Below, in pieces: positions 2,327-6,603 of a DNA stretch of 64,000 bases (its first letter is position 1; the number at the start of each line of letters is the position of its first letter). This DNA is from Caulobacteraceae bacterium (GTDB lineage: Bacteria > Pseudomonadota > Alphaproteobacteria > Caulobacterales > Caulobacteraceae). Under the pieces are notes generated by a model. The model was not told the DNA's origin and made no database searches. It saw only the letters and a program-made list of their open reading frames with translations. The DNA lies in contig CANJME010000002.1 of assembly GCA_947475875.1 (NCBI GenBank), forward strand, positions 124,001 through 188,000. Direction: 5' to 3'. The position numbers and the translations under genes are program-made.

Positions 2327-3191
2327 CACGCGATCCCGCGCGCCTGCACCTGTCATCTCCGCCAAACCCAAGCCCAAATCCGCCGCCCGCGGCACGAAAC
2401 TGAAAGGCGCCGGCCGGGCCGGTCTGCCGCCCCGCATCGCCCTGATCGCCGCCTCCGGCGCCGTGGCGCTTTGCGCCGGCCTGATCCTTTTCACCGGCGA
2501 TCGTCTCAGCCTCGTCCAAACCGGCGCCGGGCGCAGCTTCTATGCGGCGCTGGGCGCCATGGGCTTCGAAATGACCTCGCTACAGGTCGCCGGCGCCTCG
2601 CCCTTCGCCACTGATGACATCGTCGCCGCCACGGGCATGAAGAAGCATGATCCGATCCTTGGCGTCGATCTGGCCGCGGTGCGGGGCCGAGTGCTGCAGG
2701 TCGGCTGGGTGGACAGCGCCACCGTCACCCGCAACCTGCCCAACACCCTGGTCATCCGCGTTGTCGAGCGTACACCCGTCGCCGTCTGGCAGACAGGCGG
2801 CCGCGTCGGCGTGATCGACGCCCATGGCCGCGTGATCCGTGAAGCCGATCCGGCCGAGTTTTCGCAGCTGCCGCTGGTCGTCGGCGCCGGAGCCAACGCC
2901 AGCGACGGATCGGTCTTCGCGCTCATTCGTGCGCGGCCCCGGCTGGCCGAGCGGCTGGAAGCCCTGGTCCGCGTCGATGAGCGGCGCTGGGATATCCGCC
3001 TGAAGAGCGGCGCCATTATCCAGCTGCCCGCCACCAATGAGGCCGGCGCCATGATCACCCTTGATCAACTGGACCAGGGGCAGGGCGTTCTCGACCTTGC
3101 GCTCGGCCGCATTGATCTGCGCTCTCCGGGCATGGTCGTGGTTCGTCAGCGCGACGCGGCCGATCCCGCCTCAACGCCGGGGAGCGCCTGA
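2292..3191 (+). CDS. ftsQ: Cell division protein FtsQ
   Basis: Bitopic inner-membrane divisome protein that links FtsB/FtsL with the early ring. The 299 aa product has a basic proline-rich cytoplasmic tail (1-40), one transmembrane helix (about 45-65), a POTRA domain (about 80-150) and the beta domain ([26 protein letters not shown]). I chose the ATG at 2292, inside ddl, because it gives the basic tail expected for alphaproteobacterial FtsQ; an ATG 72 bp upstream would add an untypical Arg/Trp-rich stretch read from ddl. ftsA follows after 3 bp, so the pair should be co-transcribed. Confidence 0.92.
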
Positions 3192-3194
3192 GCC

Positions 3195-4544
3195 ATGTCG
3201 CTGACCCTGGATCTGATGGGCAAGAGCAAGAGCCGCGATGACGGGCCCCGCGCCGGTCTGAAGGCCGCGCTGAGCCGCCAGCCGGTGGTCGCCGCCGTCG
3301 ATCTGGGAGCGCACAAGGTCGCCTGCTTTGTCATGAAGGCCAGCGGCGTCGACGCCGAGGCCCGCACCCTGACCGCCGCCGGCGTCGGCTATGTGGCGTC
3401 GCGAGGGGTGAAGGGCGGGGCCATCGTTAGCGCCGAAGAGGCCGCCGACGCTATCGCCATGGCGGTTGAACGGGCCGAAACCATCGCCGGGGAGCGGGTC
3501 GAGGGGGTGACGATCGCCACCTCGGGTGGCAAGCTGGCCAGTCTGCGGGTCAAGGCGCGCGTTGGACTGGGTCCCCGGCCGATTTCCGATCAGGACCTGA
3601 TGCGCGCCAATGCGGCGGCGCTGGCTCAGACCAAGCACGTCGACCGCCGGGCGATTCACCTGCTGCCGATCTCATGGTCGGTGGACGACCAGGGCAAGGT
3701 TCGCGATCCGCGCGGCATGGTCGGCCGGAGCCTGGGCCTTGAGCTGCTGGTCGTGACGATCAGTGAGAACGCCTTCCAGACCCTTATCCATTGCGTCGAG
3801 CGCGCCCACCTCGATTTCGAAGGCGTGGTCGCTGCGCCTTACGTTTCCGCCCTGGCCGCGCTGGAAGACGATGAGCGCGAGCTCGGCTGCATCTGCATCG
3901 ACATGGGCGGCGGCTCGACCTCTGTCGCCGTCTTCCAGCAAGGCGCCCTGGTGCATATCGACAGCCTCCCGGTTGGCGGCAGTCACGTCACTGCCGATAT
4001 CGCGCGGGGCATTTCAACTACAACGACCGGCGCCGAGCGCATCAAGACCCTGCACGGCTCGGCCATCGCCTCGGCCAATGAGGACCGCGAGATGATCGAG
4101 GCTCCGCCCCGGGGTGATGATCCCGGCGCCGGTCCTGTGGTCGCGCCGCGCAGCCTGCTCAAAGGCATTATCGCGCCCCGGGTCGAGGAGACTCTGGAAC
4201 TCCTCCGCGACCGCCTGAAGGCTTCTGGCGCGCCCATCGATCCTGACGCGGGTATCGTACTGATCGGCGGCGCAAGCCAGCTGGCCGGCATCCGTGAGGT
4301 CGCCGTGCGGGTGTTCGACCGCCCGGTGCGTCTGGGCCGGCCCATGCGGGCGCCGCACCTTGCCGACGCCGCCTCCGGTCCGGCGTTTTGCGCGGCGGCG
4401 GGCGCTCTGCAGCGCGCCGCCTTCGGCCCGCGGGAGATCGCCACGTCGCGGTCATTGGCGGGTCTCAAGCCCCTGCCAGGGTCGGGCGATGGGCAATCAC
4501 CCGTCTTCATCCGCATCCGCGACTGGTTGCGCGAGAACCTCTAG
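3195..4544 (+). CDS. ftsA: Cell division protein FtsA
   Basis: Actin-fold ATPase that tethers FtsZ to the membrane. The 449 aa protein has the phosphate-1 loop (VAAVDLGAHKVACFV), the 1C/SHS2 subdomain (about 105-180), the phosphate-2 loop (CICIDMGGGSTSVAVF), the adenosine motif (IVLIGGASQLAGI) and a C-terminal amphipathic membrane helix (FIRIRDWLRENL). A linker of about 25 residues (AIASANEDREMIEAPPRGDD) lies around 290-315. Normally ftsZ comes next; here an arsC-like gene follows, so the division cluster is broken. Confidence 0.95.
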   Translation: MSLTLDLMGKSKSRDDGPRAGLKAALSRQPVVAAVDLGAHKVACFVMKASGVDAEARTLTAAGVGYVASRGVKGGAIVSAEEAADAIAMAVERAETIAGERVEGVTIATSGGKLASLRVKARVGLGPRPISDQDLMRANAAALAQTKHVDRRAIHLLPISWSVDDQGKVRDPRGMVGRSLGLELLVVTISENAFQTLIHCVERAHLDFEGVVAAPYVSALAALEDDERELGCICIDMGGGSTSVAVFQQGALVHIDSLPVGGSHVTADIARGISTTTTGAERIKTLHGSAIASANEDREMIEAPPRGDDPGAGPVVAPRSLLKGIIAPRVEETLELLRDRLKASGAPIDPDAGIVLIGGASQLAGIREVAVRVFDRPVRLGRPMRAPHLADAASGPAFCAAAGALQRAAFGPREIATSRSLAGLKPLPGSGDGQSPVFIRIRDWLRENL

Positions 4545-4606: not shown

Positions 4607-5023
4607 ATGGCCAAGTCTGACGTCACGATTTTTCACAACCCGAACTGCGGGACCTCACGGAATACCCTGGCGCTGATCCGTGAGGCGGGTGTCGAACCCC
4701 ATGTTGTCGAGTACATCCGGGCGGGCTGGACCAGGCCACAACTGACCGAATTGTTTCAGAAAATGGGCGCTCGGCCGCGTGAAGCCCTGCGGGTCGCCGG
4801 GACCAGCGCCGAGGAGAAAGGACTGACCGATCCGTCCGTCTCCGATGCCGCCCTGATCGCTGCCATGGTGGCCGACCCGATCCTCGTCAACCGGCCGATC
4901 GTGGTAACGGAACGGGGCGCGTCGCTATGCCGCCCTGTGGATAAGGTCGTACCGCTGCTATCTGATGAGGCTCAGGCCAACTTAAGGGCCAAGGGCCTTC
5001 CGGCGCCTCAAAATCAAGCTTGA
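4607..5023 (+). CDS. arsC: ArsC-family arsenate reductase (glutaredoxin type)
   Basis: A 138 aa thioredoxin-fold protein of the ArsC/Spx family. It has the catalytic loop HNPNCGTSRNTL (active Cys near residue 14) and the second signature NRPIVVTERGASLCRP that binds the oxyanion. It would reduce arsenate to arsenite with glutathione/glutaredoxin, or be an uncharacterised ArsC-like reductase, since no arsR or efflux gene is nearby. The ATG at 4607 gives the standard N terminus; no strong ribosome site precedes it. It lies 62 bp after ftsA where ftsZ would be expected. A DnaA-box sequence lies inside it at 4936-4944. Confidence 0.85.
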   Translation: MAKSDVTIFHNPNCGTSRNTLALIREAGVEPHVVEYIRAGWTRPQLTELFQKMGARPREALRVAGTSAEEKGLTDPSVSDAALIAAMVADPILVNRPIVVTERGASLCRPVDKVVPLLSDEAQANLRAKGLPAPQNQA

Positions 5024-5029
5024 CCGGCT

Positions 5030-5038
5030 GTGGATAAG
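5030..5038 (-). promoter_or_regulatory. DnaA box upstream of M23 gene
   Basis: Perfect 9-mer TTATCCACA on the minus strand. An identical 9-mer in the same orientation lies 94 bp upstream at 4936-4944 inside arsC. DnaA is a known transcription factor for division genes such as ftsZ in Caulobacter. The second box is within coding sequence, so only the intergenic one is a promoter candidate. Confidence 0.5.
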
Positions 5039-5054
5039 TTCAAATTGACGAAAA

Positions 5055-5069
5055 TTAACTTGCACTTAA
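5055..5069. promoter_or_regulatory. Perfect CtrA box upstream of M23 gene
   Basis: TTAA-CTTGCAC-TTAA matches the full TTAA-N7-TTAA consensus. It lies 110 bp before the M23 start, 16 bp after the DnaA box, and just after a TTGACG that could be a -35 element. A GACTC site (CcrM target GANTC) follows at 5112-5116. Together these resemble a cell-cycle controlled Caulobacter promoter. Confidence 0.6.
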
Positions 5070-5178
5070 GGGTCTTGGCCGGTCATGGTTCGCGAAACGG
5101 CCAGGGACCGCGACTCACGGGTTCAATAGGCCAGGTTGCAGGCGTACGCGTCTTCGAGAACGGGGGAACCCGGGGTAC

Positions 5179-6603
5179 ATGATGCAAGAGTTCGATCCAC
5201 GCCGGCCTACATTCCGCATTGCGCCCCGTGCGCTGATGGTGCTGGCGGGTTGCTGCGTTCTGGCGCTGGGCTTTCGTCTGCAGTCGGCCGAGGCGAGCCT
5301 GCCCGGCCCAGGTGCGCGAGCGGCTGACGCGGCGCGGGCAATGACCCTGCAGACCCGCGCCTTCGCCGAATCTGAAACCCAGCCCGGCATGGCCCATCCC
5401 GGCGCGGTCGATGTTGAGATCCTGCCCGGCGAAACCATCCTGGCGGCGGTCCGCCGCCTGGCGGTTGATCCCAAGGACGCCGAAGAGGCCGTAAGCCTGC
5501 TTGGCCAAACGTTCGACACCGACAAAATCCGCACCGGCACACATTTCCAGGCAGCGATCGCCGATCCGGTGGAGGCCGGCGGCTACCCCCGGCTGATCGG
5601 GATTTCGTTGCGTACGGGACCTGCTACCCAGGCGGTGATCTCCCGCAGCTACGACGGCGTTCTGCGCCTGCGCCAGCTGACCGAGCAGATCAGCGAGGAA
5701 ACCACCATTATCCAGGGCGACATCGAAGGTTCGCTTTCGGAAGCCGCCGGTTCGATGGGCGCCACCTCGGCGATTATCCACCAGGCCTCGCGACTGTTCG
5801 CCCACAAGGTCGACTTCGGGCGTGACATCCAGGAAGGCGATACCTTCAAGCTCGTCTTCACGCGGCGGGTCACCCAGAGCGGCCGGACCGTCGAAGGGCT
5901 GAACCTGCTCTACGCCGAACTGGACTCAAAGGCGGCGGGAGCCCAACCCTTGCGGTTCTACCGGTTCCAGGCGCCGGGCGACAAACAGGCCGACTACTAT
6001 GACGAGGCGGGCAAGAGCACCCGCGGCTTCCTGCTGCAGACGCCGGTGGGCTTTGCGCGCGTGACGTCCGGGTTCGGCAGCCGTATGCACCCGGTGCTCG
6101 GCTATACCAAACAGCACACCGGCATCGATTTCGCCGGTTCCACCGGCACGCCGATCTACGCCTCGGGCGACGGCGCCATCAAGGAGATGGGCTGGAAGGG
6201 TGGTTACGGCAACTGGATCGACATCAGCCACGGGAATGGCTGGGATACCGGCTATGCGCACATGTCGCGCTTTGCCCCCGGCATCCGGCGCGGCGTTCAT
6301 GTCACCCAGGGCCAGCTGATCGGTTATGTTGGCTCGACCGGTCAGGTCACCGGACCGCACCTTCACTACGAAGTCATGCACAACGGCGCCAAGCTTAATC
6401 CGCGCAGCACCGCGGTGCCGGCGGGCGGGCATGAGTTGACCGGCGCGAAACTGGCGGCCTTCAGGAACCAGGAAGGCTCGATGGACACCCTGCTTACCCA
6501 GGCCGATCAGCCGGGCGCCACCAGGCTCGCCAGTGGCGTCACCGCGCCGCCGAAGACGACGGTCGTGGTGCTCAATCCGTCCGGCGGAACCCTGCGGAAC
6601 TAG
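5179..6603 (+). CDS. M23 family peptidoglycan endopeptidase, membrane-anchored
   Basis: Predicted zinc endopeptidase (LytM/M23) acting on periplasmic peptidoglycan. The 474 aa product has one N-terminal membrane helix or uncleaved signal (about 15-38), an OapA/LysM-like region (about 75-125), a beta-rich middle domain, and an M23 domain (about 300-405) with H313 and D317 in HTGID and H394/H396 in HLHYE, so all zinc ligands are present. The C-terminal 70 residues are low in complexity. The ATG at 5179 follows GGGG-rich sequence; a second in-frame ATG follows directly. Its promoter region holds CtrA, DnaA and GANTC sites, which points to a role timed with division. It ends by a 4-bp stop overlap with the opposing esterase gene. 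Confidence 0.9.
   Translation: MMQEFDPRRPTFRIAPRALMVLAGCCVLALGFRLQSAEASLPGPGARAADAARAMTLQTRAFAESETQPGMAHPGAVDVEILPGETILAAVRRLAVDPKDAEEAVSLLGQTFDTDKIRTGTHFQAAIADPVEAGGYPRLIGISLRTGPATQAVISRSYDGVLRLRQLTEQISEETTIIQGDIEGSLSEAAGSMGATSAIIHQASRLFAHKVDFGRDIQEGDTFKLVFTRRVTQSGRTVEGLNLLYAELDSKAAGAQPLRFYRFQAPGDKQADYYDEAGKSTRGFLLQTPVGFARVTSGFGSRMHPVLGYTKQHTGIDFAGSTGTPIYASGDGAIKEMGWKGGYGNWIDISHGNGWDTGYAHMSRFAPGIRRGVHVTQGQLIGYVGSTGQVTGPHLHYEVMHNGAKLNPRSTAVPAGGHELTGAKLAAFRNQEGSMDTLLTQADQPGATRLASGVTAPPKTTVVVLNPSGGTLRN

Follow-up and report, generated by a model that had tools for sequence, protein, structure and literature searches.

A predicted CtrA-controlled M23 endopeptidase gene in the usual place of ftsZ in a Caulobacteraceae genus

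In the 64,000-nucleotide stretch of Caulobacteraceae DNA analysed here (the window), a gene for an M23 endopeptidase follows the ftsA region, and DnaA boxes, a CtrA box and a CcrM methylation site lie in front of it. The question raised by this locus is which of these three eye-catching motifs is under selection, and whether the gene may be controlled in the manner of ftsZ. Upstream, ddl (1382-2326) precedes ftsQ, which ends at 3191, and ftsA (3195..4544, plus strand; TIGR01174, 290.9 bits). Between ftsA and the M23 gene lies arsC, encoding a glutaredoxin-type arsenate reductase (4607..5023, plus strand; TIGR00014, 124.7 bits, above the cut-off), and a gap of about 155 bp separates it from the M23 gene, a probable ldpD orthologue (5182..6603, plus strand), which may start at 5179 or 5182, the latter being the conserved start. 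The sites described in a sequence-only reading of this DNA were all found in their places: two perfect DnaA boxes TTATCCACA on the minus strand (4936..4944 and 5029..5037), a perfect CtrA box TTAACTTGCACTTAA of the form TTAA-N7-TTAA (5055..5069), and CGACTC (5111..5116, plus strand) with the CcrM methylation site GACTC at 5112-5116. The DnaA boxes do have the same orientation, at a start-to-start spacing of 93 bp rather than the 94 bp given before. The first of them lies inside arsC, on the codons GTG GAT AAG (V-D-K), and the second, which reads TGTGGATAA on the plus strand, is intergenic. That reading mentioned neither arsC nor the position of the first DnaA box within its coding sequence.

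As a statement on gene order, the remark that the M23 gene occupies the expected place of ftsZ is correct, because ftsZ has moved next to ctrA. In most genomes of the family ftsA is followed by ftsZ, as read from two coordinate tables, and several other genera have the order ctrA, one gene, arsC, M23. In the sister genome G015 (L146/L159), ftsZ follows ctrA at a distance of about 380 bp, and arsC and the M23 gene come after ftsA. In the genome of the window (G000), ctrA lies at a contig end (C22:340-1026, L158) and ftsZ at the start of another contig (C2:314, L001); an insertion between the two genes probably split the assembly. An IS3-like transposase frame starts just behind ctrA in this genome and is probably what stands between it and ftsZ. 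Set against the orders ctrA-M23 and ftsA-ftsZ found elsewhere, the window genus has ctrA-ftsZ (seen directly in G015) and ftsA-arsC-M23, an arrangement most simply explained by a swap in the ancestor of the genus, in which ftsZ and arsC-M23 traded their positions behind ftsA and ctrA. The relocated ftsZ still has its own promoter with CtrA, GANTC and DnaA-like elements. A second full-length ftsZ is present in several genomes of the family (G087, G097, G122, G074 and G118).

The M23 protein has a membrane-anchor-like N-terminus followed by an M23 domain (Peptidase_M23, 6.8e-33), in which the zinc-ligand motifs HxxxD (HTGID) and HxH (HLH) are both intact. The closest models are ShyC, ShyA and MepM, all with scores below the NCBIfam equivalog cut-offs, and the closest PDB relatives are 3slu, 6muk and ShyA 6ue4. 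The protein is a catalytically intact, periplasmic LytM endopeptidase of the LdpA-E type, similar to ShyA and MepM. The orthologue stands directly behind ctrA in 19 of the 22 genomes of group g22, which judging from this ctrA-M23 order would be Caulobacter, and in all three genomes of g2, where fliI- and flhA-like frames, recognised by translation, adjoin ctrA. Since this is the place at which a figure legend lists the C. crescentus LytM gene beside CtrA as LdpD (PMC13384398), the M23 gene is probably the orthologue of ldpD. The LdpA-E enzymes are described as largely redundant and as contributing to general fitness in C. crescentus (PMC10336132), and for this reason a divisome role is not indicated; the earlier suggestion of a possible place of the enzyme in the division machinery is unsupported. 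No cell-cycle data for C. crescentus ldpD were found in our search of the open literature.

For comparison of the sites, the upstream regions of 110 M23 orthologues in the family were collected. A perfect CtrA box is located no further than 130 bp from the start in all three genomes of the window genus (TTAACTTGC[A/G]CTTAA, at -121 to -126), and one g19 genome (G060) has the same box sequence at -127, the distance between box and start being nearly constant throughout (-121 to -127). In the alignment of these four genomes 14 of the 15 columns of the box are invariant and all 8 TTAA letters are kept, against 19 of the 160 other upstream positions (12%), and no other 15-mer of the M23 upstream region is as well conserved in the four g1/g19 genomes. 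Group g2 carries a perfect CtrA box in three of three genomes as well (TTAAYCTTTGGTTAA, at about -100), in a different promoter context. Most genera lack a full box at the M23 position, among them g22 (probably Caulobacter), g7 (Phenylobacterium), g3 and g15, and the M23 protein tree did not tell a single gain of the full box from repeated gains. Within the window TTAACTTGCACTTAA occurs once, with 0.04 copies expected. The genome encodes a CtrA that is 91% identical to the copy of G120 (g22), together with GcrA, SciP and a RAMA-domain protein of the CcrM type.

A GANTC is likewise kept in three of three genus members, as CGACTCA in G000 and G015 and as TGATTCT in G030. The CGACTC context is the same as in the ftsZ and mipZ promoters, and its reverse strand fits the GcrA-preferred YGAKTCK (PMC3708114, PMC7987155). 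The window has less than one third of the GANTC sites expected (82 versus 279), a strong depletion of the kind that a CcrM organism should show, and one such site inside 180 bp is not unusual at the window density (about 20%). Relative to the start that we predict below for promoter P2, the GACTC would lie at about +17, i.e., downstream and outside the usual -10/-35 window, although another promoter may be located further downstream. Of the ftsZ-like CcrM/GcrA control proposed before, the site itself stands, and the control appears plausible, because all three members of the genus retain a GANTC in the GcrA-preferred context.

The DnaA boxes are the part of the proposal that fares worst in the relatives, since the CtrA box and a GANTC are conserved in the genus whereas the perfect DnaA boxes are missing from both congeners. 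Their local density is high: TTATCCACA occurs twice in the window with 0.14 copies expected, none of 100 shuffles reached two, and the whole genome (2.85 Mb) has four perfect copies, the probability that two of four random sites fall within 93 bp being about 4e-4 (a post hoc value). This clustering, the presence of all three site types in perfect form at the M23 promoter, and the occurrence of the same three kinds of element in the promoter of ftsZ in G000 speak for a full ftsZ-like triple control of the M23 gene by CtrA, DnaA and CcrM/GcrA. Against it, no perfect DnaA box is found in any other M23 upstream region of the 110, the congeners G015 and G030 included; the site of the first box reads CCCGTTGAAAAGG in G015; and even the relaxed core TCCACA is present in just 8 of the 110 regions, with the window as the sole member of its genus. 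Moreover, one of the two boxes lies inside arsC. The case for DnaA control is weak with perfect boxes limited to the window species, and such control is unlikely or very recent; the triple control as a whole we regard as unlikely, though by no means negligible.

The orthologue alignment reveals a promoter core common to several genera, in which TGTGACAAA is followed after 14-17 nt by an AT-rich element, then by CTTGC and, about 18 nt further on, by CATGG. On this basis two putative promoters may be placed in the window: P1 (5030..5058, plus strand), with GTGGAT (5030-5035), 17 nt and AATTAA (5053-5058), where the relatives have GTGACA-N17-AATATT/AATAGT, and P2 (5060..5089, plus strand), with TTGCAC (5060-5065), 18 nt and CATGGT (5084-5089). 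The start of P2 would then fall at about 5096 and the 5' end of the CtrA box near -41. We infer both positions from conservation only; a plain sigma-70 scan of the region found no consensus promoter. Among 109 upstream regions, GTGRCR-N16-18-AT-rich is present in 28 versus 0.5 expected (in g22, in 22 of 22), CTTGN-N16-20-[CG]ATG in 24 versus 2.0, and TTGC-N2/3-TTAA half sites, found in other genera, in 13 versus 0.8, counts that overstate the evidence, as members of the same genus are not independent. In the window the CtrA box extends over parts of both promoters, namely the AT-rich element at the putative -10 of P1 and the CTTGC at the putative -35 of P2, and the second DnaA box occupies the place of the conserved -35-like TGTGACAAA of the relatives. 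A derivation of this promoter from that of ftsZ was rejected, as the M23 core of the relatives (TGTGACAAA ... CTTGC ... CATGG) has been kept, and so was a short leader ORF from the conserved CATGG, the frames of which differ in length and sequence among three species.

Given this anatomy, the TTAA letters could be mere AT-rich borders of a -35 element, with no action of CtrA at the M23 promoter. CTTGC is indeed conserved far outside the lineages with the full box, and the total of perfect TTAA-N7-TTAA in G000 (2.85 Mb) is near chance, with 6 versus 5 for a reversed-pattern control. As the count hardly exceeds the control, the positions of the boxes weigh more than their number. Two are in the hemE-ppsR gap and one each at ftsZ, in a flagellar region between fliP-like and flgB-like reading frames, at the M23 gene and at a proline-rich gene, so that, the M23 box apart, four of the five stand at canonical CtrA places (two at Cori, one at ftsZ, one at a flagellar operon). 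The identities of hemE, ppsR and the flagellar genes were taken from translations alone. Together with the invariance of the eight TTAA letters in a region that is otherwise 12% invariant, these positions make the absence of CtrA action distinctly improbable. The Cori-like hemE-ppsR gap (C9:91410-91761, L056) also holds two TGTGGATTC DnaA-type boxes besides its two perfect CtrA boxes, and the box at C24:15480 (L156) lies at the start of the proline-rich, secreted-looking protein. The CtrA part of the original proposal finds good support: the box is conserved under divergence, it is located at a putative -35-like element, and it is one of the six in a genome where most of the others are canonical. 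We put the probability that CtrA controls the M23 gene, as predicted from sequence, at about 0.8.

Full CtrA motifs near -35 mark predivisional activation, and in the ctrA gene a single full box activates P2, relative to which it lies at -39, and is proposed to repress P3, relative to which it lies at -14 (Zhou 2015, PMC4287350). By the same logic, CtrA~P would bind the full palindrome at 5055-5069, wrapping the -35 of a weak, activator-dependent P2, and would switch the M23 gene on at the CtrA peak, expected in predivisional cells. Bound there, CtrA~P would also cover the -10 of the upstream constitutive-type P1 and repress it. Methylation of CGACTC by CcrM, read by GcrA, may add timing to the expression, and binding of DnaA may occur as well; if real, it would be recent and limited to the window species. 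The promoter positions, the sign of regulation and the timing are what we infer for this gene.

A more far-reaching reading would be that after the swap the endopeptidase gained a full CtrA/CcrM switch, plus DnaA in the window species, and that a redundant growth-type enzyme is now produced in time with FtsZ and acts in constriction; we consider this very doubtful. That the DnaA boxes are a replication or titration element and not a part of the promoter can be put aside as extremely improbable: two perfect boxes of the same orientation near a CtrA box are a combination of site types also met at Cori, but the boxes here are not conserved, and a replication origin at the M23 promoter was rejected since the Cori of this genome, which has two CtrA boxes together with boxes of the TGTGGATTC type, is found at hemE-ppsR. 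The M23 gene is likely to be a new CtrA regulon member, ordinary in kind though well conserved. From this point of view, the locus adds a peptidoglycan endopeptidase to the predicted targets of CtrA, in a genus of Caulobacteraceae that has been little studied. The swap between ftsZ and the M23 gene, both of which have CtrA boxes at their new places, is a natural experiment on whether the promoters of cell-cycle genes move along with them.

Among known systems, the ctrA P2/P3 region of C. crescentus is comparable in that at the M23 gene, too, a TTAA-N7-TTAA would overlap one promoter at its -35 and a second one at its -10; the target here is, however, a peptidoglycan endopeptidase gene, and its promoter positions are predictions. 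The ftsZ promoter of C. crescentus and other Caulobacterales also combines a CtrA box, a CGACTC GANTC and a DnaA-type box in close proximity, whereas at the M23 gene the order of the elements differs and the DnaA boxes are not conserved. At the protein level, the DD-endopeptidases ShyA, ShyC and MepM share with the M23 protein a Csd3-N2-like domain and the M23 domain, although its scores under the equivalog cut-offs set it apart from these enzymes in the strict sense. Further counterparts are LdpD and the LdpA-E enzymes in general, with similarly intact catalytic motifs; the g22 and g2 orthologues lie directly behind ctrA, much as LdpD is listed next to CtrA for C. crescentus, while in the window genus the gene follows ftsA-arsC and has a full CtrA box.
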